Below, one piece after another: positions 3,353 through 64,000 of a stretch of DNA of 64,000 bases; position 1 is the stretch's first letter, and each line of letters opens with the position of its first letter. The position numbers were made by a program, and so were the translations under genes. The stretch is from a virus: IMG/VR virus record IMGVR_UViG_3300045806_000063, positions 117,109 to 181,108 of that record. The stretch is one strand, 5' to 3'. The notes beneath the pieces were generated by a model. It was not told where the DNA came from. It did not search any database and worked only from the letters and a program-made list of their open reading frames with translations.

Positions 3353-4261
3353 TTATTCTGCAGGACTTGAAGTGTATCTATTAGGCGCTATTGTATCTGG
3401 AGTAATAGAAGCCAATGTACCAGCGGATGATGCTGCAACATTAGCGTCCATAGTGTTAAGTATGCCTGCAAGTTCTTGTGGTCTAAGATCTTGCAGATTA
3501 AGACTTTGCAAGATTGCATATGCAAACATTAATGGAGCTTGACCTATTTGACTATAAGCTGTGAATGTTAAATCTACATCCACAGACTTCAATGATGCTG
3601 CAGTTTCTTTATATCCTTTAAGTTCGCCAATGCTGTCAGTGACTTGCCAGTTAGCAGATAACCATGCCTTTAATGGCCTTGTGAGGGTCATGTCAGGCTC
3701 AACAGCCAATACCACGAATGATTGGTCGGCTGGGGTAATTACTGGGCTACCTGCAGCAATGTAATTAGGATTTTGACAAATAGCTGGAGTTTGTAAATCG
3801 GGATCCATTAAATAGATACGAGAAAATTCAGTCCAGTATCGGGTGATAGATTGATTAATACGATCAGCGCCATATCCTAAAACTGGTTTAGAAGCCGCTC
3901 TAGAGGATCTAGTTATTGTTTCCAATACCTCATTAGCATTACCAATTGGAGTGGAGGCGCCATGTTCATTCGTCACTGTCATATCAAAACCATCCACTTT
4001 AATTGGATAAGTTTCAATCATGTTTTTCAGCCAATCGACTTCTTTCTGTGGATTAGTAGCATACTGAAATAATCTAGGTGCTGCTATTAGAAACAGTCTT
4101 AAAGGCTGTTGTATATAAATTCCTGATGATGTAAAGGTCATCGGGATAGGCATGAATCCGTTTTGACCATTGATGGACAAATCAGTCATAGGCGACCTGT
4201 ATTCGCCAGATAGTAACGGCGTTAATATATTGCTTTGTATAGCAGTAAGTGGTGTTGCCAT
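3353..4261 (-). CDS. Tail tube protein (phiKZ gp30-like)
   Basis: The 302-aa product lies directly downstream of the sheath gene with a 13-bp gap, the sheath-tube order of phiKZ (gp29-gp30). It begins MATPLTAIQSNIL and is beta-rich, with several residue pairs typical of tube proteins. It would form the inner tube of the contractile tail through which DNA passes. The ribosome binding site (GGAGG on the minus strand near 4268-4272) is strong. No early promoter element lies upstream of this pair, which fits late expression. Assignment rests on position, size and resemblance from memory. Confidence 0.8.
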   Translation of the reverse strand: MATPLTAIQSNILTPLLSGEYRSPMTDLSINGQNGFMPIPMTFTSSGIYIQQPLRLFLIAAPRLFQYATNPQKEVDWLKNMIETYPIKVDGFDMTVTNEHGASTPIGNANEVLETITRSSRAASKPVLGYGADRINQSITRYWTEFSRIYLMDPDLQTPAICQNPNYIAAGSPVITPADQSFVVLAVEPDMTLTRPLKAWLSANWQVTDSIGELKGYKETAASLKSVDVDLTFTAYSQIGQAPLMFAYAILQSLNLQDLRPQELAGILNTMDANVAASSAGTLASITPDTIAPNRYTSSPAE

Positions 4262-4274
4262 TTTACATTCCTCC

Positions 4275-6464
4275 TTAGAATGGTGATGTTGAAGTTACAG
4301 TGCCACCAGATAAATTACCTGTACGTGTAGCAACCACTGTAAACAAAGCTACGTCTTTCGTGACTCCGGCAGCTACAGTTAATACATTATGCCAACTAAA
4401 ACCATTTTGAGTATCTACTTCTGTGAAGAATGTAGATGACGTTATAACCGCCTTACTGTTATATATACCGTTGATAGCATTGTAAATCAATTCATCAGAT
4501 TTATCAATGAATATCTGCTGTGTAGTTAAGTCATCACGACCTACGAGTTGTCTCCATACTTTAGCTTGTTGCAGTGCTAAGTTGGCACAGATATGTCGTA
4601 TTACATCAGATGTCAAAATCGACGTATCATTAGGGTAGATAGAGTGAATGAATGGGTAGAAATACTGATTCCCCATACCAGACGGTATACAGTAAATTGC
4701 ACCATTGTTCCATGCCTCGTTTGCAGATAATGGTGTAAAGTTAGGACTACTTAATGATTTGAAATACTGCACACCGTTATTATCAGGCATGGTATAATCA
4801 AAGGTTCCGCCAACGGACATCACGCCATTACCAGCCCCCATATAAGCTGCTCGTTTCAACAGCATTTCTATGTTTGCAGTCATAGGAGTTTGATAACCAT
4901 CCACCAATAATCCAGCTTGCATAACCAGAGTGGCTCGATAAGCCGGAGTGCCAAAAGTAGGAGATTCAGCAAAGTTAAGAATAGACTGTTGCAGAATTGC
5001 CGCAGCTGATATTTCTTGAGCCTGGGTCAATAAAGGCCCACCGTCTACGTATGTGGCAAGATGGACCGAGGTGTTTTGACGAAGTGCCATCCACTGTGGA
5101 AGAATTTCTTTAGTAGCAGACCCGAAACCAGTATCGTAAATTTCACTAAATGGATATTTCAGTATATTCGTTGCAGGGCAGGTATCAGTATTGTAACTGT
5201 ATTGTGTCCAGTTTTGAATTTCAAGTTCATAGTCTGATGTTAACAAACTACCATCAGTACCGCCCATCATGTAATAGCTATTCCCAGATGAGAGAATACT
5301 CTCTGTTGCATCTATCTGGAATCCATAAGCGGTGCCACCATTAGCATCTGTAGCTGTTAAAAAGTCAAGCATCCAGATACTTGCTGGAGGAGTAGGGTTA
5401 TTTGCCACCTCAGCTGCAAACAGCACGTTTAAGAATTCTTCAAGATTACTTTCAAATACAGTAACTGCACCGATAGGGCTAGTTATTGGCGACGTACCTG
5501 TGTTAAAGCCATCATCAGACCAGTTTGTTACCAGACCTTGTATGGTTAAATTGAGGTTTGTAATTGGGTCATATGCGTTTGGTTTAAACATAAACTGCAA
5601 ACTAGCACTACCTTTCAAATCTGGAATGATTAGAGGAGTGGAAGTATTTATGTTTCTGATAATTTGAGCATTAAATAATAACGCTTGCTGACTTGCCACG
5701 GTACCGGTATTGCCCGGAAGTGGGTTATTAGGTGTAGCAGCCCACATATTGAAACCGAACATATTACCACCGACACCGGTAAAGGAATCCTCTACCATAA
5801 ATAATGGGTATGTTATTTGACCTACCGAGTTAGCCCAGGTAATCGGTTGAGTACCACCTGCCCCACCAGTCCAGGTAATTGGCAATCCGTTGGTTCCAGT
5901 CCATGTATCAGTGCTGCTGCTGGTTAAAGTACCATTGAGTTCAGTTAACGACATACTACCTTGTGGTACTACAGTGTAACTAACCTTAACACCGCCAGGT
6001 ACGGGAACTGGAACACCATCTACCATTAATAACTCTGGTTGGTTAGTAGATGCGTTGTAAACTACCTTACCGTTCACATCTCTTTGATATTCGTAAATAT
6101 CCGCACCGTGTTCGATTGTAGCAAGGACTACTGCTGATGCTTTTGTCACTGGTGAGCCTCCCACACCAGGAGTCCGAATGATTTTAACCATACAGGGATT
6201 GCCTTTTTGCAATGTATCAACCAGGGCTTTGGTTTGGTGATTCCAATAAGGTCCTCTTTGATCGAACGCTGCTGAGCCAATTTGCTGCAAGGCATCTAAA
6301 TAGCTCATAATAGCAAGAATGTCCTGATCATTCCCGTATGGGGAACGTATCATAAACAATGGAAAATGCTGAGGCTGTAACAAAGATATCTGAGTAGGGG
6401 CTGTCGTACTTTGATCATTAACCCCTGTAAAGGTAAAGCCTGGCAGGTTTGTATTTGTTGCCAT
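4275..6464 (-). CDS. Contractile tail sheath protein (phiKZ gp29-like)
   Basis: The 729-aa product is close to the roughly 700 aa of phiKZ-type sheath proteins. The N-terminus (FPLFMIRSPYGNDQDILAIM) and the rest of the chain are rich in Thr, Asn and Gly. The C-terminal part contains the conserved-looking domain that interlocks subunits (around residues 600-720). It forms the contracting outer tail cylinder. It is first in a minus-strand operon with the tube gene. The AGGAAG ribosome binding site is at about 6471-6476 on the minus strand. Confidence 0.87.
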   Translation of the reverse strand: MATNTNLPGFTFTGVNDQSTTAPTQISLLQPQHFPLFMIRSPYGNDQDILAIMSYLDALQQIGSAAFDQRGPYWNHQTKALVDTLQKGNPCMVKIIRTPGVGGSPVTKASAVVLATIEHGADIYEYQRDVNGKVVYNASTNQPELLMVDGVPVPVPGGVKVSYTVVPQGSMSLTELNGTLTSSSTDTWTGTNGLPITWTGGAGGTQPITWANSVGQITYPLFMVEDSFTGVGGNMFGFNMWAATPNNPLPGNTGTVASQQALLFNAQIIRNINTSTPLIIPDLKGSASLQFMFKPNAYDPITNLNLTIQGLVTNWSDDGFNTGTSPITSPIGAVTVFESNLEEFLNVLFAAEVANNPTPPASIWMLDFLTATDANGGTAYGFQIDATESILSSGNSYYMMGGTDGSLLTSDYELEIQNWTQYSYNTDTCPATNILKYPFSEIYDTGFGSATKEILPQWMALRQNTSVHLATYVDGGPLLTQAQEISAAAILQQSILNFAESPTFGTPAYRATLVMQAGLLVDGYQTPMTANIEMLLKRAAYMGAGNGVMSVGGTFDYTMPDNNGVQYFKSLSSPNFTPLSANEAWNNGAIYCIPSGMGNQYFYPFIHSIYPNDTSILTSDVIRHICANLALQQAKVWRQLVGRDDLTTQQIFIDKSDELIYNAINGIYNSKAVITSSTFFTEVDTQNGFSWHNVLTVAAGVTKDVALFTVVATRTGNLSGGTVTSTSPF

Positions 6465-6632: not shown

Positions 6633-7598
6633 ATGTCATTAGATCAGGGCGTAATTGAGGAAGGACTTTATAGTACTAACTACTTGGCATCAGAACAAGT
6701 AAAGGCCAAAACAATAATCAAACTTATAGGAAGAGATTATCTTCTTTTTAAAGATGATACATTAGTGTTCAAAACTATTAAACCGTCATATGGTGGAAGA
6801 GAAGGTAGAAGGGTTGTGGCGTTATTAGGAGATTTGCCAAACATACCTACATTTAATCATCCGATTTATCACAATGGAGTCTCATATATAGATGCTAGAG
6901 CATTTATCAATAGACAAAGTGGTGAAATACGAAATCAAGGTGAGTATGATAATTTAATCAGAAGAGCTATTTTGGACATGCTCTGGATTGAAGAACGAGA
7001 TATATTCTTTAGCGGACAAATCTTAAATCTGACAGCTAAAGTATTTAGTGAATGGGTAGGGGCAGGTGTAGAGAGAGGAGCTAATCTTGATATGCGAACC
7101 GCTGGAAATGTCAAGGTATTGCTTATGGCGTATATCTTATTCCAGGCAGTGACTAAGAATGGAATGGGTGCAGAAGAACGCAGTGCATTCATAATCAAAA
7201 AAGCAAGGGATATACTAGGTTTGCAAATGGAGTATGTGTTAACCTTAACTGAGACTTATCCAACTGCTTTCAGTGACATATATGAAAATCCAGGAAGAAT
7301 ATTCTTTTTAGTTAAATCATTGGCGGTGGTAACTAATGATGAGAGATTGAGCTTTGAAAGAACCCTTTATGATATCATTGGTAATGGGGCTACGATGCAA
7401 AGTAACTCTCGTGAACTGGCATGTATCTCTATTGAAAATATACCGACCTTTGTAGCGCTGATGCACTTTGTTAATTTCCCTAGTATGAAGACTACTAAAA
7501 TTGGAAGTCCTCTTTTCCATAGTCGTACAAAATATGGTGATGTTTTAGAGAGATTCATTTCTCTAAATACTAGCTATGAGACAATAGATGCAAGATGA
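6633..7598 (+). CDS. Putative virion-associated protein, phiKZ tail-region type
   Basis: The 321-aa product follows AAGGAG at a good distance. Residues 9-24 (EEGLYSTNYLASEQVK) are encoded by a 51-bp segment that also occurs exactly in the gene at 12361, so the N-terminus appears chimeric. The rest is helical and hydrophilic. It overlaps the next gene by 4 bp (ATGA) and heads a three-gene block next to sheath and tube. By position these may correspond to phiKZ gp26-gp28, probably tail or baseplate parts; that is inference. Confidence 0.65.
   Translation: MSLDQGVIEEGLYSTNYLASEQVKAKTIIKLIGRDYLLFKDDTLVFKTIKPSYGGREGRRVVALLGDLPNIPTFNHPIYHNGVSYIDARAFINRQSGEIRNQGEYDNLIRRAILDMLWIEERDIFFSGQILNLTAKVFSEWVGAGVERGANLDMRTAGNVKVLLMAYILFQAVTKNGMGAEERSAFIIKKARDILGLQMEYVLTLTETYPTAFSDIYENPGRIFFLVKSLAVVTNDERLSFERTLYDIIGNGATMQSNSRELACISIENIPTFVALMHFVNFPSMKTTKIGSPLFHSRTKYGDVLERFISLNTSYETIDAR
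6655..6705 (+). repeat. 51-bp in-frame repeat, copy 1
   Basis: This segment is identical over 51 bp to 12770-12820 and read in the same frame in both genes, giving EEGLYSTNYLASEQVK. Confidence 0.97.
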
Positions 7599-12360: not shown

Positions 12361-12945
12361 ATGACAATTCAGAACACACTCGCTATACAATATTGCGTTT
12401 ATTATACTGCCGATAAAGATGTCTTAATATCCCAAAAAACGGTAGTGATTGACGTAGTCCAAATATTGGCAGCAACCATGTTTACGGATGGCGGGGTATC
12501 TAAGCTAGTATTCACTTTCATTAACAATAATCCTCCTATCGAGTTTAAACTCAATAGCTCGATTAACGCTGATGTAATTGGGGATATACTGGATATCGTC
12601 AGTATATCCAAAACGCATAATAGTAACTGTCGTTACACTAGGGTAATAGGTGTGATCGTTCCAGAACCTTTGTACAAAATACAGGATGGGAATTACCATG
12701 CAGGATCTATTACTGCTAGTCAAAAACCCAAGGTTAAAAAGCTGCTGAAGAGCTTATATACGGAGCTACTTGAGGAAGGACTTTATAGTACTAACTACTT
12801 GGCATCAGAACAAGTAAAGGAGCTTTTAGATTTCCTTCCCAGGTTAATAGAAGAGAATGCAATTCCGCCCGCACCACACATTAACCGTGTAGTGCGCCTT
12901 TTAGAAGAAATAGAAAAAATTCCAGACTTTGAATCCTGGTTATAA
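12361..12945 (+). CDS. Hypothetical protein with copied peptide segment
   Basis: The 194-aa product has a beta-rich N-terminal domain (residues 1-105) and a helical C-terminal part. Residues 138-153 are EEGLYSTNYLASEQVK, encoded by the 51-bp segment shared with the gene at 6633. No family recognised. ATG 12361 follows AAGAGG. It lies in the early operon between the gene at 11878 and tmk. Confidence 0.7.
   Translation: MTIQNTLAIQYCVYYTADKDVLISQKTVVIDVVQILAATMFTDGGVSKLVFTFINNNPPIEFKLNSSINADVIGDILDIVSISKTHNSNCRYTRVIGVIVPEPLYKIQDGNYHAGSITASQKPKVKKLLKSLYTELLEEGLYSTNYLASEQVKELLDFLPRLIEENAIPPAPHINRVVRLLEEIEKIPDFESWL
12770..12820 (+). repeat. 51-bp in-frame repeat, copy 2
   Basis: Exact copy of 6655-6705, 6.1 kb away and in the same orientation. 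Confidence 0.97.
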
Positions 12946-13660: not shown

Positions 13661-14611
13661 ATGAATATTTTAACAGTTGGCGATAAGGGAAAGGCAAGAT
13701 GTCATACATGCAAAGCCTTTGTCAGTATAACTTTTAAGCTGAGAGATGTACCATTACGTGATGGTAGCGGTATAATAGATAATGTCTTAGCTGGCATTTG
13801 TGATTATTGCGATAACGTGGTAAGCTTACCACTGCAATCCGCACCTTACTTAGATACAATACATGAAGCAATGCAAGATGCAGCGAAACTCCAAGCTAAG
13901 CAATTGCTAGAGCAGTCTCATTTTGATCCTGCAGAGATACATGATAGAATACAATTTTTAATATTACCAAAAACCATAGAGGAAAAACAAATGAAAAAAG
14001 ATTTAGATACATTAAACGAAACACTAAACAAACTCAAAATGATAGAGGAAATGGAGAGTAGATACCATGACCTTCTTAATAGACGTTCCTATTTTGACCA
14101 GTCTTTGCCGCAGCCATCTCTCACTGGCAAAGAAATGGAAAATCTTAAGAATTTAAGACAAGCTAATGCTGCAATTATAGCGGATCTGTTCGAGGATGTT
14201 GAGGCAGTTGATGAGGTCTCCACTGAAGAGGTTAAATCCTATTCCTCAATGCGGGATGCTTTGAAATATGCTAATTTAACGGCAGCTATCAAATCTACCG
14301 TAGTTGAAAAGGAGGAAGACTTAAGACAGGATACAAAACCCACTCCTCCACCTAAACTGCTAACTACCGCAGTAGACACAACCATAGACTTGTTTGCTAC
14401 CGCAGTAGACACAACCATAGACTTGTTTGTCTACTGCGGTCTAATTACATCATATTCTAACGAATGGTCAATAGTAGATAAGTTAAACGCCCTGGCCGCA
14501 GTATTTAACCGTAGTAAGGAAGAGAAATCTCCTATTGAAGCAGCATCTCACATTAGTGAGACTGAAGAACAGGAAATACAAGCCGCCGTCCGTCATCGTA
14601 AGGAAGTTTAA
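13661..14611 (+). CDS. Hypothetical zinc-finger and coiled-coil protein with internal repeats
   Basis: The 316-aa product starts with a likely zinc ribbon: CHTC (about residues 14-17) and CDYC (about 48-51). A long charged helical region (about 60-165) is predicted to form coiled coil. Around residues 235-256 the sequence [11 protein letters not shown] is duplicated in tandem by an exact 33-bp repeat, followed at once by the inverse of its start (GTCTACTGCGGT). The QMKKDLD segment is shared with the gene at 11878. It lies between tmk and dcd. Function unknown. Confidence 0.7.
13986..14008 (+). repeat. 23-bp in-frame repeat, copy 2
   Basis: Exact copy of 12020-12042, in an unrelated protein. 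Confidence 0.9.
14364..14429 (+). repeat. Two exact tandem copies of a 33-bp coding unit
   Basis: Units 14364-14396 and 14397-14429 are identical and keep the reading frame. GTCTACTGCGGT at 14429-14440 is the reverse complement of ACCGCAGTAGAC in each unit, so either unit can pair with it in a hairpin. Confidence 0.97.
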
Positions 14612-30906: not shown

Positions 30907-31968
30907 TTAAGTACTAAATTTTTCTTTTATTTCATTATACTTAGCTAAACATGTAGTTCTCATGTTGTCATCCATCTGTCCAAGATAATGGTTGTTCTTA
31001 ATTAACCTATCCACTCTATGAAGAATTGTTAGGATATTAGTGCTATTACCAAAATCTTTATCAAACAAATAGGTTATGGGGTATGCCCAATTCACAAATG
31101 TATAAAATGTAACCCAATAACTATAGCTGTCTAAAGATGCTATACTCATCGGTAAAGCCGATAAATAATCAGAGCTATAGATCATAGGGATTTCTGCTAA
31201 TCCCTTAAGGTAAGGCTTATTACTGCCTTTAATGGCACTTAGGATACGAACTACGGATAAGTCTATTGTTGTTTCGTATCCCTGTATAAAACCACGCTCA
31301 TATCTCTCTTTAGGGACTGGTTCTCCTCTAGATAAGTACGGTAATCTATTCCTTATAGCAATGTCATAATATTCGACTACCATTAATGGTAATACGTACT
31401 TTGAAATAAACTCAGATAAGTTCTCCCTAGCTCCTTCAGTCTTTTTATTATTTTGAATTAACCATCCTTTTAACTTATAAGCGAATAAAGGAAGATCTAT
31501 CCCGATTACTGTAGTGGTATTAGGAATAACAGAAGCCCTATCAACTGGAGGTATAAAGATCTCTAAAGTCGTATAGGGGTGATCTAATACTCGAATAGCT
31601 CTCACCTCTTCCCATGGAGTAGTAATGAATTGATCTGGGAAGGTAGTGGCTATAATAGCATTAGTCTCAGAATAAATCACATTACGATGTAATGCTCCAA
31701 ACCCTGTAATATTTGTAATGTGTAATGGATTACATATCCTAGCTACTGAGTCATCTACCATAGAGTATACGTCTGAATGATGCAGATAGGGTGATAGCGC
31801 GTAACATAGTTTCTTGAATAAGTGGTCACTGGAAACTACTGTACCAGCTACCTGCTGTAGAGATGTTTGATAAGACACTCTAGCATTAATTAGATCTCTG
31901 ATTCTACCAAGTAACATACTGTTGAGTGTTCCATAGTTTGCTACAGGTCTTATGAATAACCTATACAT
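30907..31968 (-). CDS. Hypothetical protein, probably late
   Basis: The 353-aa product is rich in Tyr, Ile and Leu and contains no motif I recognise. The ribosome binding site on the minus strand (AGGAG, about 31977-31981) is good. It has no early promoter element upstream, so late expression is likely. It may be a virion protein by analogy with other minus-strand genes. Confidence 0.72.
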   Translation of the reverse strand: MYRLFIRPVANYGTLNSMLLGRIRDLINARVSYQTSLQQVAGTVVSSDHLFKKLCYALSPYLHHSDVYSMVDDSVARICNPLHITNITGFGALHRNVIYSETNAIIATTFPDQFITTPWEEVRAIRVLDHPYTTLEIFIPPVDRASVIPNTTTVIGIDLPLFAYKLKGWLIQNNKKTEGARENLSEFISKYVLPLMVVEYYDIAIRNRLPYLSRGEPVPKERYERGFIQGYETTIDLSVVRILSAIKGSNKPYLKGLAEIPMIYSSDYLSALPMSIASLDSYSYWVTFYTFVNWAYPITYLFDKDFGNSTNILTILHRVDRLIKNNHYLGQMDDNMRTTCLAKYNEIKEKFST

Positions 31969-32167
31969 GTTCTATTCTCCTAAGAAGTCATAGGATGGAA
32001 GATAAGATGATTTTGTTAGTGATATTATTATAGTAGTTAGAAATTAAATATTAAATTAATTTCCGTATATATAAATATGGGAGAGGGGGGATACCCCCCC
32101 GACCACGACCAGAGAAAAGAATTAAAAGATTTAATAATATTATTAAATAGGGAAAATACAATCAGAG

Positions 32168-32193
32168 GTATAATCCACCTAGGTGGATTATAC
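32168..32193. terminator. Palindrome centred on CCTAGG
   Basis: A 26-bp perfect palindrome in the gene-poor region; a second stem GCATGTG/CACATGC follows at 32201-32220. Confidence 0.55.
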
Positions 32194-32248
32194 TCCTTTA
32201 GCATGTGCATAGCCACATGCATGGAGATGGTGTGTAACCTCCGCTTAA

Positions 32249-32311
32249 AGCTTACAACATAGTGACTAGGATGACTGCTAGGCAACAACCTAGCAGCAGT
32301 GTAACTTATAA
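32249..32311 (+). repeat. 63-bp direct repeat, copy 1
   Basis: This matches 33078-33140 with only a few differences outside its hairpin. The hairpin stem CTGCTAGG/CCTAGCAG encloses CAACAA here and TTGTTG in copy 2, so the core is inverted between copies. Confidence 0.93.
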
Positions 32312-32330
32312 TGGTATATTCAAATAATTT

Positions 32331-32354
32331 TCATTTATATATCATCTAGATGAG
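32331..32354 (+). promoter_or_regulatory. Early promoter, long-leader type
   Basis: TTATATATCATCTAGATGAG and the leader to 32418 nearly match those before the genes at 1167 and 15347. Confidence 0.75.
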
Positions 32355-32418
32355 ATTACTAAATAGTGATTCTTAAGTAGTCATTCTTTTAATAGCAAAT
32401 TATATCGGAGATAAGATT

Positions 32419-32631
32419 ATGGCATTACACACTGGTGAAGAAAAGGGCTACAAACCAAGAACTCCAAATTTCCGGATCGTCTACAAGTTCCCCATCCCTG
32501 GGGGACAGTGGTACGACAACTGGCCCGAGGAGGTCATTGCCTCCTCAGCTGAGGAGGCAATGCTCCAGGCCTCAAGGGAGGTGCTCAGGGTGGAGGCGAT
32601 TCCAGCGGCACAAAACAGGAATCGCGCTTAA
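32419..32631 (+). CDS. Small hypothetical early protein, foreign composition
   Basis: ATG 32419 follows the leader with ATCGGAGATAAGATT. The 70-aa product (PNFRIVYKFPIPGGQWYDNWPEEVIASS) looks like a small one-domain protein with a beta hairpin and an Ala/Glu-rich helix. The DNA is clearly GC-rich compared with neighbours. It lies inside the cassette bounded by 63-bp repeats. Function unknown. Confidence 0.7.
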   Translation: MALHTGEEKGYKPRTPNFRIVYKFPIPGGQWYDNWPEEVIASSAEEAMLQASREVLRVEAIPAAQNRNRA

Positions 32632-32705
32632 ATCAAACCCTAGAAGGTTAGCAACCGACTTTCGTCAATTTTAAAGCCGGGAAATCCCGGCAAGGATTTA
32701 ACATC

Positions 32706-33110
32706 ATGACCGAAGCTCAGGATGAGATATTCAACCTGACGCAACACGCGGCAACGGCTGACCAAGCCGAAGCTGGTGTTGTTGAACCAGTATACAAAGC
32801 AGGAATTCAGTCCTGCTTAACGTTCGTAGGCATACCAACTGCCTATGATATTAAAACTAGGGCTAGCAGCTTAGCAGCTAGCGCACGACAATCTGGCTGT
32901 AAAAAAGCCATGATTGGCGGCGCGCCTTATCTGATGAGCGCGCTGGAAGCTGCGCTCATCAAGGTAGGTGTTACCCCTGTCTACGCTTACTCAGATAGAG
33001 TAAGCGTAGAAACAAGAAACACTGACGGAACAGTCAGCAAGTCAACGGTGTTCAAGCACCTTGGTTTTGTTGAGGTCAGCTTACAACATAGTGGCTGGGA
33101 TGACTGCTAG
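32706..33110 (+). CDS. Hypothetical bacterial-type protein (NLTQH family), foreign composition
   Basis: The 134-aa product starts with FNLTQHAATADQAEAGVVEP and ends with VYAYSDRVSVETRNTDGTVS and then KSTVFKHLGFVEV. From memory this pattern occurs in small proteins of bacterial chromosomes and mobile elements, with function unknown to me. An alpha/beta fold with the IGGAPYLMSALEAAL helix is likely. The DNA is GC-rich and contains short hairpins. ATG 32706 follows AAGGATTTAACATC. The stop codon lies in the hairpin of the 63-bp repeat. The gene was probably acquired with the gene at 32419. Confidence 0.72.
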   Translation: MTEAQDEIFNLTQHAATADQAEAGVVEPVYKAGIQSCLTFVGIPTAYDIKTRASSLAASARQSGCKKAMIGGAPYLMSALEAALIKVGVTPVYAYSDRVSVETRNTDGTVSKSTVFKHLGFVEVSLQHSGWDDC

Positions 33111-33140
33111 GTTGTTGCCTAGCAGCAGTATAACTTATAA
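33078..33140 (+). repeat. 63-bp direct repeat, copy 2
   Basis: This covers the 3' end of the gene at 32706 and its hairpin (33104-33125). Copy 1 lies 829 bp upstream on the other side of the two-gene cassette. Confidence 0.93.
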
Positions 33141-33180
33141 GGGGATTAAATACTACTGTAGTATGTTAGACTGTTGAGTA

Positions 33181-33214
33181 ATTACTCCTTCCTCGATATC
33201 GAGGAAGGAGTAAT
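33181..33214. terminator. Palindromic terminator in the 127-bp repeat
   Basis: A 34-bp perfect palindrome centred on GATATC is followed by a run of T (33226-33240). An identical copy lies at 63911-63944. Confidence 0.82.
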
Positions 33215-33249
33215 GATGTATTCTTTATTTTTTTTTCTTTTAAATCGAA

Positions 33250-33270
33250 AACATATATTATCTGAGTGAT
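33250..33270 (+). promoter_or_regulatory. Early promoter
   Basis: ACATATATTATCTGAGTGAT, followed by AGTCCGTAGTTAA as at 1557-1569. The next gene starts at 33304. Confidence 0.82.
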
Positions 33271-33303
33271 AGTCCGTAGTTAATTAATTTAGGAGTGGTA
33301 GTT

Positions 33304-33537
33304 ATGGCAAGTATGATGGTTAGGCATCTGGTGGTATCTCGTAAGTACATGCATGGTTACAAGGAAGGAGATCGGGTAATTGTTAGGTTGGATAGCGGAC
33401 TGACATTTCATGCGGTTGTTAAGTTATATTCAGTACGCAGGCTAGTAGTACAGGATGTAAGGTATGTTAATGAACTAAGTTGGAGAGGACAGTTTCTGGT
33501 GTCTCCAAAACATATTTTAAATTTAGTAGGGGGATGA
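33304..33537 (+). CDS. Small basic beta-rich hypothetical protein
   Basis: ATG 33304 follows TAGGAGTGGTAGTT and gives 77 aa; an in-frame GTG at 33295 is less likely. The product (YKEGDRVIVRLDSGLTFHAVVKLY) looks like a small SH3-type barrel with many basic residues. A 15-codon frame (33542-33589) follows and may be a vestige. Function unknown. Confidence 0.65.
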   Translation: MASMMVRHLVVSRKYMHGYKEGDRVIVRLDSGLTFHAVVKLYSVRRLVVQDVRYVNELSWRGQFLVSPKHILNLVGG

Positions 33538-33621
33538 AATTATGGGAACACAATTTGAACTGACCGAAGAGCAGGATCTGTTACATTGAGTTACAATTTT
33601 ATTAAATTTAGAGGATAGAGA

Positions 33622-35397
33622 ATGGAACGTATAAGAAAATTAGAAGAACTTTTAAGCTGTAGGTATTCAGTTACACCACCTGCTCTCACTCATCTGATTA
33701 AGAATGGTTGGGAGGGGGAGCATACAGTGACCATTGTACCTGATAGAATACATCGTATTATGTCCGATGAGAGCTGGGGGATATTCCTAGACGGGTTCAA
33801 GAGGATGGTATTAGGTACTCCTTATAGGGATATTCTGGAGTTCATAGAGGAACTGGTCGTCCGTAACAATGGAGACGTACGACGGTACACTGGGTATTTA
33901 CAGGATGCGAGAATTCCTTTTAGTGTTCGGCGTGGTTATATGGGCGAGAATTATGGGGCTAAGAAGATAGAGGGTGGCGGGCGTATGCGTGTTCCTGCTC
34001 CTAAACCTGGGACGATAGAGTTCATTATTGATACTGATGCAGTTGAGAATCGGCATGAGGTGTGGACTGATTTGTGCAGTGAACGACTAGTGTCACAGTC
34101 CTGTGAGGGAGCTGCTTGTGCTCTGGCTGATAGATTCATGCTTCCTGGTATTGACTTTACTACTATGGTCAAGTGTGAGAAGGAGAAAGGTGAGTCTACA
34201 GCACTTGAAAGTTGTATTGGGGAGTACTCAGTTACGATCCCTCCTAAGGGTAAGAACAGAATGTCTTTAGGGGGGTATCCAGTGGATATGCCGCCGCCGT
34301 TTCCGACACCTGTAGGGGTTAGGAAGCATTCTCAGATGGATAACGATAGCTGGGAAGTATATTCCAATGCATTTTCGCAAATGGTATTAGGGGTAGACCA
34401 ACCCGGCATATTAGGGCGGGAGTTTAGTAGTGTTATGGAGTTCTTGAGGGGGTTTCCGAAACTTAATGGCAAAGATGGTATAGTGGTCCAATTGAGCGGA
34501 TACTCTTTACGGGAGGCTTCCATACCTTTTAAAATTATACGTGGATCAGCTGGAGTAGATTATAATGTTAATGTACTTAGGGAGGGGCAAGATGGCGCTG
34601 TTCCAGCACCTAGGGATGGTACTTTGGAGATTATTATAGATTCCAGTGCTAACAGATGCATTCAACAGAGATGGGAGGAACAGGCATGTGAACGCATGAT
34701 CGCAAGGTCTGCCTCTGAGGCTGCGGCTGCGTTAATGGAGGTTTTTATGCTTCCGGATATAGAGTTTCGCTATGAAACTCCAGTAATACCAGTTATTCCA
34801 ATGGGCTCGGTAGGGCCAGTAATAGATGAAAAAATAAATGATGGAGAACTAGAAATGGATACTAACTTAGCGGTTGTAGATCCGATATACCCAGATGCGG
34901 ATGCTGATGGGGAATGCTTTCGTCCAGGATTAGAACCAGGGGAATTTGAGGTAGAGGAGGAGTTAAAGAACCAGCTGGCGGAAGAATGTGACACTGAAGA
35001 CTCTCCTACTACTGAGAGAGGCGGAAGTAGTATCGAGGCTACGATAATAGTACAAGGAGAAAAGATGATACTAATCTTGTATACAGGTTTGGACCCTAAT
35101 GGCAGGTACCCGTTTGCGACTCTAGGCGTCCATGCTATCCATCCTGGTGAGAATACCCTGCCTCTTGTGTCTGTGGGTCAGGCCATTGAATGCGATGATG
35201 ACGAAACTTGGGCTCTTGGCTGTGTGATCAACCAAGATATCTTTTATTCAACCGTAGCTACTATGACGGATTTTGGAGTATTGACAGGTATTGGGGTTAT
35301 GTCAGTAGAGTTTACTGATGCACTGAACAGAGCACTGAATGTAATGGTGAGTATTGCGGATGTTAAATATTCTCGTATTCCGAGTAACAATCATTAG
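33622..35397 (+). CDS. Hypothetical early protein with a duplicated domain
   Basis: The 591-aa product contains two related domains: residues about 30-190 and about 230-390. Paired features include SDESWGIFLDGFKRMVLG with DNDSWEVYSNAFSQMVLG, RIPFSVRRG with SIPFKIIRG, VPAPKPGTIEFIID with VPAPRDGTLEIIID, and ADRFMLPGIDF with MEVFMLPDIEF. An acidic linker and a third, unrelated domain (about 460-591) follow. EKGESTA between the duplicated domains is encoded by a 21-bp stretch shared with the chimallin gene. No family recognised. It shares an early operon with the gene at 33304. Confidence 0.75.
   Translation: MERIRKLEELLSCRYSVTPPALTHLIKNGWEGEHTVTIVPDRIHRIMSDESWGIFLDGFKRMVLGTPYRDILEFIEELVVRNNGDVRRYTGYLQDARIPFSVRRGYMGENYGAKKIEGGGRMRVPAPKPGTIEFIIDTDAVENRHEVWTDLCSERLVSQSCEGAACALADRFMLPGIDFTTMVKCEKEKGESTALESCIGEYSVTIPPKGKNRMSLGGYPVDMPPPFPTPVGVRKHSQMDNDSWEVYSNAFSQMVLGVDQPGILGREFSSVMEFLRGFPKLNGKDGIVVQLSGYSLREASIPFKIIRGSAGVDYNVNVLREGQDGAVPAPRDGTLEIIIDSSANRCIQQRWEEQACERMIARSASEAAAALMEVFMLPDIEFRYETPVIPVIPMGSVGPVIDEKINDGELEMDTNLAVVDPIYPDADADGECFRPGLEPGEFEVEEELKNQLAEECDTEDSPTTERGGSSIEATIIVQGEKMILILYTGLDPNGRYPFATLGVHAIHPGENTLPLVSVGQAIECDDDETWALGCVINQDIFYSTVATMTDFGVLTGIGVMSVEFTDALNRALNVMVSIADVKYSRIPSNNH
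34182..34202 (+). repeat. 21-bp in-frame repeat, copy 1
   Basis: Identical over 21 bp to 36275-36295 in the chimallin gene; both are read as EKGESTA. Confidence 0.88.
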
Positions 35398-63639: not shown

Positions 63640-63662
63640 AAACATATATTATCTGAGTGATA
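63640..63662 (+). promoter_or_regulatory. Early promoter
   Basis: AAACATATATTATCTGAGTGATA, identical in its core to the copies at 1535 and 33250. Confidence 0.82.
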
Positions 63663-63875
63663 TTGTTAGTAGTATTTAATCATAAAGGTCAGTTGGGTAT
63701 AACTGGACCATGCGACAAATCGTGGTACTTCGTTTTGTGCTCTGTTGTGGTGATTGTAGTTCATACAACTGCGATAAGTTGGCACCGTCCGGTTAGTGTT
63801 AATATCCGATTTTCTACCGTTCGCATAATAGATGCAAACGGTAACCGGACTAATAATCTCAACTGGCCTTTTTGA
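63657..63875 (+). CDS. Small possible membrane protein with unclear start
   Basis: The frame gives at most 72 aa with one hydrophobic segment (WYFVLCSVVVIVVHTTAISW). The only starts are GTG 63657 inside the promoter and TTG 63663, neither with a ribosome binding site. If real, it would be read from a leaderless message. The DNA is richer in GC than the surroundings (63760-63850). Uncertain. Confidence 0.38.
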   Translation: MILLVVFNHKGQLGITGPCDKSWYFVLCSVVVIVVHTTAISWHRPVSVNIRFSTVRIIDANGNRTNNLNWPF

Positions 63876-64000
63876 TTAAATACTACTGTAGTATGTTAGA
63901 CTGTTGAGTAATTACTCCTTCCTCGATATCGAGGAAGGAGTAATGATGTATTCTTTATTTTTTTTTCTTTTAAATCGAAAACATATATTATCTGAGTGAT
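63874..64000 (+). repeat. 127-bp promoter-bearing repeat, copy 2 (runs to window end)
   Basis: Exact copy of 33144-33270, including the palindromic terminator (63911-63944). Confidence 0.97.
63980..64000 (+). promoter_or_regulatory. Early promoter at the window end
   Basis: ACATATATTATCTGAGTGAT; its gene lies beyond the window. Confidence 0.8.

Follow-up and report, generated by a model that had tools for sequence, protein, structure and literature searches.

An accessory early unit with a csx20-like gene between 63-bp direct repeats in a jumbo phage genome

Organization of the locus

The window, i.e. the whole stretch of DNA analysed here, comprises 64,000 nt and corresponds to positions 117109-181108 of a 181,108-base virus record (IMGVR_UViG_3300045806_000063). 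It contains two 63-bp direct repeats between which, as described in the initial annotation, lie an early-promoter-like module (~32317-32418) and two ORFs (32419-32631 and 32706-33110). The features of the locus, in window coordinates and all on the plus strand, are as follows.

32168..32193, plus strand: terminator-like perfect palindrome of 26 nt (fold z -5.5), with no plus-strand gene before it
32249..32311, plus strand: repeat copy 1, read as a decayed csx20-like 3' end and its hairpin, in the slot held by the upstream terminator in other units
32275..32296, plus strand: hairpin core of copy 1, arms CTGCTAGG/CCTAGCAG, loop CAACAA
32317..32418, plus strand: early-promoter/leader/ribosome-binding-site module, with 10 further copies in the genome (83-98% identical)
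32419..32631, plus strand: ORF A, 70 aa, no relative found
32535..32562, plus strand: perfect palindrome of 28 nt within ORF A
32628..32663, plus strand: exact 36-nt copy from a gene of the phage itself (DNA-polymerase-related gene of 560 aa, record 3426-3461, minus strand)
32706..33110, plus strand: csx20-like ORF, 134 aa, predicted ring nuclease/anti-type III CRISPR protein
32932..32961, plus strand: hairpin with a 10-bp stem within the csx20-like ORF
32980..33010, plus strand: hairpin with a 13-bp stem within the csx20-like ORF
33078..33140, plus strand: repeat copy 2, last codons of the csx20-like ORF and hairpin
33104..33125, plus strand: hairpin core of copy 2, arms as in copy 1, loop inverted (TTGTTG)
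33144..33283, plus strand: 140 nt identical to another locus (end of the record followed by its start), right recombination border
33181..33214, plus strand: perfect palindrome of 34 nt, second terminator-like site after the unit

No relatives of ORF A were found in phages, plasmids, viral contigs, Pfam, PHROGs or NCBIfam. The 36-nt copy, situated just past the end of ORF A in the intercistronic region, corresponds to the KSNPRRLATDF part of the polymerase-related gene. The two ORFs had been described as being of foreign base composition. Both do lie above the genome mean in G+C content (0.549 for ORF A and 0.494 for the csx20-like ORF; mean 0.384, sd 0.042, 192 ORFs), but this does not set the cassette apart, the 11 units with a promoter module spanning 0.38-0.54.

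The source genome

The record codes for a divergent family B DNA polymerase, a PhuZ tubulin and a nuclear-shell protein. On the basis of these three predicted products, we place the phage among the nucleus-forming chimalliviruses, as a deep-branching jumbo phage far from known members. The best identity of the polymerase was ~35% (279 matching phage records), and searches of viral contigs with the polymerase, the shell protein and the 353-aa protein found no relatives. Since the two ends of the record share a 93-nt overlap inside a 140-nt repeat (window 63874-64000; record 1-106), the genome looks circular and the assembly broke at the repeat. The 127-nt identity at the end of the window was considered as an independent full copy and rejected: it is the contig-end overlap.

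A family of eleven early units

The promoter module, made up of an early-promoter-like core, a leader and a ribosome-binding site, is present in 11 copies in the record, all on the plus strand and 83-98% identical. Each heads a unit with an accessory gene, after which comes a hairpin that in most cases is a perfect or near-perfect palindrome. This hairpin lies at most ~62 nt after the stop codon in 11 out of 11 units, and in 9 out of 11 there is also a hairpin at most 27 nt upstream of the module; the two units without one are those at 4730 (behind the start of a minus-strand gene) and at 94896. Promoter and terminator functions are suggested for the module and the hairpins from their arrangement in the sequence. 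The cassette unit also stands behind the start of a minus-strand gene (30907-31968), yet upstream hairpins are present with no gene to terminate, and we read them as leftovers; the 26-nt palindrome at 32168..32193 is a probable remnant of a lost unit.

Among the ten proteins of the other units, Pfam recognized a Nudix hydrolase and a glycosyltransferase, the remainder having no confident family. One hairpin-rich early gene driven by the module (record 4831-5256) gave a weak match to the PADLOC Csx15/20/peptidase model (E 0.0019).

The gene order of a relative indicates that the cassette unit is an addition. In Erwinia phage pEa_SNUABM_54, the genes for the polymerase, the homologue of the 353-aa protein (minus strand), the shell protein and an RNA-polymerase subunit are adjacent, whereas here 3.6 kb, containing the cassette, an 80-aa gene and a 591-aa gene, separates the 353-aa gene from the shell gene. 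The shell proteins of the two phages are not linked by BLASTP alone; both match PHROG 4795. The unit is therefore inserted between genes that are neighbours in a relative (in this one relative). This supports the view of an accessory unit equipped with a promoter-like module and hairpins of its own, where the relative has only spacer sequence. Morons of temperate phages are extra genes located between conserved genes, with their own promoter and terminator and a different base composition. The cassette resembles them in being an extra gene between conserved genes and in its distinct composition, and its promoter-like module and terminator-like hairpin, present at the sequence level, may be the counterparts of their promoter and terminator; it differs from them in that it belongs to a jumbo phage, in that eleven units share one promoter module and in that it is flanked by a duplicated gene end. 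Our verdict is that the cassette is a real accessory unit and not a demonstrated mobile cassette.

The csx20-like protein

The 134-aa protein matched the Csx20 models of NCBIfam (E 2.6e-7, 31 bits, residues 82-122 only) and PADLOC (E 6e-8, residues 84-122). Strict membership was rejected because 31 bits is below the cut-off of 70 bits of NCBIfam NF040559, and we call the protein Csx20-like rather than Csx20. Relatives were found by tblastn in 6 of 50,697 phage records and in 3 of 72,556 plasmids, and a profile search of viral contigs gave 100 more, from which the best 80 were kept; Csx20 itself was reported in 4 out of 28,114 phage genomes (PMC12409355). Family members matched the Csx20 models of NCBIfam (9 out of 9, alignment A1) and of PADLOC (49 out of 50, alignment A2, the 50 rows of which are the window protein, homologue L018 and 48 of 58 listed candidates). 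L018:264-1382 lies on a contig that was binned with an Aenigmatarchaeota MAG and that also carries a primase/helicase-like gene; the ORF is extended at its C-terminus over a long stretch.

The AlphaFold2 model has an alpha/beta fold (pLDDT 93, pTM 0.82). A sequence search for a solved structure of the family found none. The top Foldseek rows were the cA4-bound CARF protein Cam1, with weak E values of 8e-3 to 1.1e-2, and the ring nuclease Sso2081 came lower; VIA-align gave Z values of 5-6 to CARF/SAVED chains, tied with unrelated folds. As a Csx20-like protein with a putative CARF-type fold, it is predicted to be a cA4 ring nuclease that would blunt type III CRISPR immunity. It shares with the Csx20 of type III CRISPR loci, as described in PMC12409355, its size class and its C-terminal homology, and may share a predicted CARF-like Rossmann fold. 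Unlike the latter, it belongs to a phage early unit with no CRISPR locus seen beside the gene, its score is below the family cut-off, and its N-terminal half, with the NLTQH motif, is not covered by the Csx20 model. The destruction of the type III messenger by a virus that we predict here is also that ascribed to the viral ring nuclease AcrIII-1/Crn2 (named in PMC12409355), which is a separate protein family with no sequence match found.

Another role for a CARF-fold protein, that of a cyclic-nucleotide sponge or regulator, would suit the score under the Csx20 equivalog cut-off and the weakness of the Foldseek and VIA fold matches, and there is the precedent of Csx15, a good sponge and a slow ring nuclease (PMC13148439). 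We nevertheless find it doubtful: alignment A2 has 14 columns invariant in 50 members, including N10, T12, Q13, H14, R98, K112 and H118, of which H14, R98, K112 and H118 are suggestive of an active site, and both Csx16 and Csx20 cleave cA4 in vitro (PMC12409355). A predicted ring nuclease among early genes with a shared promoter shows where the counter-defence genes of such phages could be sought.

The repeats as possible recombination sites

The repeats noted in the initial annotation are real: 54 of 63 bases are identical between 32249-32311 and 33078-33140, which are 829 bp apart. There are just two copies in the window and in the record, the hairpin likewise occurs twice in 181,108 b, and the pattern was absent from all 100 shuffles. 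Copy 2 does include the 3' end of the second ORF, in the form of its final ten codons and stop, followed by the hairpin. Both copies contain a hairpin with perfect 8-bp arms around a 6-nt loop. A single event accounts for six of the nine differences between them: where copy 1 has the loop CAACAA, copy 2 has the reverse complement, TTGTTG. The remaining three are of the G/A type, and through one of them a TGG codon in copy 2 corresponds to TAG in copy 1.

It had also been proposed that the cassette is integrated, or can be excised, by recombination between the repeats. This part was not supported: no recombinase gene is present in the unit, and what is repeated is a gene end with its hairpin, in two copies that have diverged. 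The search that had been called for, for a cassette with the same ends in other phages and plasmids, found none; blastn of 31900-33700 against 50,697 phage records revealed neither an empty site nor the same cassette, blastn of the cassette against 72,556 plasmids gave nothing, and neither the promoter module nor the repeat hairpin was found by exact scanning of viral contigs. A transposon or insertion sequence was rejected because neither ORF matches a transposase and the repeats are direct and 63 bp long.

Host or helper functions could replace a missing recombinase, the repeats then being attachment sites on which an Xer-like tyrosine recombinase of the host or of a helper would act, at palindromic cores with a 6-bp spacer. 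The unit is indeed flanked by long direct repeats, both copies have inverted arms about a 6-nt centre, a layout resembling a tyrosine-recombinase core, and only 1 of the 11 module units, the cassette unit, has a direct repeat or similar sequence at both ends. We consider this very unlikely, because the two copies have their spacers in opposite orientations, something incompatible with simple excision between direct repeats, because no match to the Pfam integrase PF00589 or resolvase PF00239 was found in the whole record, and because the ends are absent from every other record searched. The arms, moreover, are presumably unlike the Xer dif consensus, which also counts against attachment sites. 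We see no sign of site-specific integration or excision at the repeats, and we favour duplication and shuffling of modules over an excisable cassette.

Origin of the unit and of its repeats

The reading that we find reasonably probable is that of a moron-like accessory early unit, coding for a predicted cA4-cleaving enzyme, the repeats of which are a duplicated unit end and not recombinase sites. The unit (promoter module, ORF A, csx20-like gene and hairpin) would be transcribed when infection starts, and the csx20-like protein would then cleave the cA4 messenger and so protect a phage with shielded DNA but exposed mRNA. That this protein cleaves cA4 and acts against type III CRISPR is suggested by its sequence and its structural model. 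While the unit was being assembled or duplicated, its end (the last codons and the hairpin) would have been copied by illegitimate recombination or by template switching. Decay of copy 1 would have followed, and template switching would have inverted one of the two hairpin loops.

Several observations count against this reading: the low Csx20 score and the weak fold matches given above, the layout of arms and 6-nt spacer, an in-frame TAA standing directly before copy 1, and the start of the repeat, which coincides with the end of the conserved domain (after GFVEV), something that a random stub would not predict. The latter two are better accommodated if the 63-bp sequence was resident, and was duplicated when the module, ORF A and the csx20-like gene were inserted; the csx20-like gene would in that case have lost its own stop codon and now end in resident sequence. 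Several homologues do end at GFVEV (among them L010, L038 and L106), exactly where the repeat begins, which favours insertion. We regard such an insertion, and the accompanying loss of the stop codon, as possible and rather less than probable, since the tail of homologue L009 resembles that of the window protein (YSGDRDC versus HSGWDDC), favouring a native tail, and the 12 residues past GFV fall inside the family range. Copy 1 is either the stub of an earlier csx20-like gene or a resident sequence that received the unit.

The loop inversion between copies 1 and 2 matches the spacer inversion by template switching described for a yeast inverted repeat (PMC8604942). In both cases, the reverse complement replaces the loop between perfect arms; in yeast, however, the comparison is between strains at one locus, whereas here it is between two copies of a repeat. 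The 140-nt exact copy that begins 3 nt past repeat 2 covers a strongly structured RNA at its 3' end together with the terminator of that RNA, and the early promoter that follows; as a copy of another locus it makes the right border a recombination border of another kind. Taken with the repeats and the copy from the polymerase-related gene, it fits illegitimate recombination and template switching.

Hairpins in coding sequences

Hairpins are also abundant inside the genes of the cassette. Perfect stems of at least 6 bp with loops of 3-12 nt were counted in each CDS and compared with permutations of its own synonymous codons. The csx20-like gene has 19 hairpins (1.7 expected; 0 of 200 permutations as high) and ORF A has 9 (1.2 expected; 1 of 200 as high). 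For the 10 module ORFs of the gene list, 123 hairpins were found against 19.3 expected, with 9 out of 10 at p<=0.05; for module gene 105147, on the other hand, 22 of 200 permutations reached its score. For the other 182 ORFs the figures are 975 against 610, with 38 at p<=0.05, and the two sets differ significantly (p = 3.8e-6). In the controls, the proportion of ORFs at p<=0.05 was at chance level (5 out of 98 in 100 kb of PCH45 and 2 out of 25 in pEa_SNUABM_54, both chimalliviruses). Folding energies agree: the csx20-like gene has a z of -12.5, and the mean was -4.3 for 12 module genes versus -1.6 for 20 others (p = 0.007), with no folding excess in m19700 (z -0.22) and m132455 (z 0.18).

The analysis was extended to 81 csx20-like CDSs, namely 77 of the 80 best profile loci (three already counted were dropped) plus L009, L010, L011 and L018. 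They contain 620 hairpins against 171 expected, and 39 reach p<=0.05; there is no excess in homologues L019/L107 and L021. The neighbouring ORFs of these loci, 106 of 459 of which reach p<=0.05, weaken the notion that hairpins are peculiar to csx20. The excess therefore belongs to accessory regions and is more pronounced in csx20-like genes (30 of 69 versus 96 of 423 neighbours after removal of duplicates; Fisher 3.6e-4). In L018, hairpins of 6-11 bp tile the csx20 domain about every 30 nt. Stem codons agree with the family consensus as well as other codons do (247 of 294, or 84%, versus 2542 of 3088, or 82%; alignment A2, 50 rows), and the excess has no visible cost to the protein.

Selection for structured early mRNA or recurrent template switching could cause the excess. 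We give an even chance to a purely mutational origin, in which template switching by the DNA polymerase perfects quasi-palindromes that weakly constrained accessory genes retain. The inverted loop of the repeats is a product of template switching like those reported in PMC8604942, and the excess is common to the accessory ORFs next to csx20-like genes. Nearly all stems in the module genes consist of Watson-Crick pairs, and no internal G-T occurs in the 5 stems with one mismatch (12 module genes: G-T 0, A-C 1; 70 homologues: G-T 15 with 2.8 expected, A-C 8 with 2.4 expected), and the folding excess is equal on the sense and antisense strands (12 genes, p = 0.52). The lack of G-T pairs in module stems and the equality of the strands make us lean to template switching. 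Conversely, the intact protein consensus in stem codons and the tiling of the entire csx20 domain in L018 lean to selection for structured mRNA, and two related phages do not have the excess. If it is mutational, template switching must be very active in some phages; if it is selected, synonymous codons would encode a further, new level of counter-defence in phages.

A specific form of the selective explanation, which we judge improbable, is that the hairpins armour the message. Synonymous codons would fold early accessory mRNAs in such a way that they survive RNA-guided binding and the single-strand RNases triggered by type III systems. A further step, equally improbable, is that the message, foremost that of the anti-type III gene, would thereby persist until the enzyme that silences the alarm has been made, and, no less speculatively, the same design would be found in unrelated viral csx20-like genes, most strongly in the archaeal-MAG contig of L018. 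Self-folding of guide RNAs was rejected as a cause: a hairpin is present in only 27.5% of 36-nt windows of the csx20-like gene (57% in L018), so that the effect would be leaky.

The nearest precedent is that of Nematomorpha mitochondria, where coding palindromes have arms of up to 142 bp and the authors lean to a burden of repeat conversion (PMC6649704). There, as here, perfect inverted repeats stand in conserved coding sequence with the protein undamaged; the arms are far longer and the genomes are those of animal organelles, in contrast to the phage accessory genes of the present case. Among the matches listed in a search of the literature there was no report of the coding-hairpin idea in phage early genes, which is no proof of absence.

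Other structured and repeated sequences

At 63660-63900 (structured 63668-63887), directly behind an early-promoter core, lies a strongly folded region of 241 nt (MFE -89.8 kcal/mol, z -8.0) with a long closing stem. It is probably an early non-coding RNA, and the 3' end of the region is copied after the cassette. The region has no Rfam match at gathering score, the Rfam search as a whole giving no family at that score and only weak, chance-level rows. Two ORFs share an exact stretch of 51 nt (EEGLYSTNYLASEQVK; 6639-6705 and 12754-12820), which we interpret as a partial gene duplication or conversion. Finally, an exact tandem duplication of 33 nt is found within an ORF at 14364-14429.
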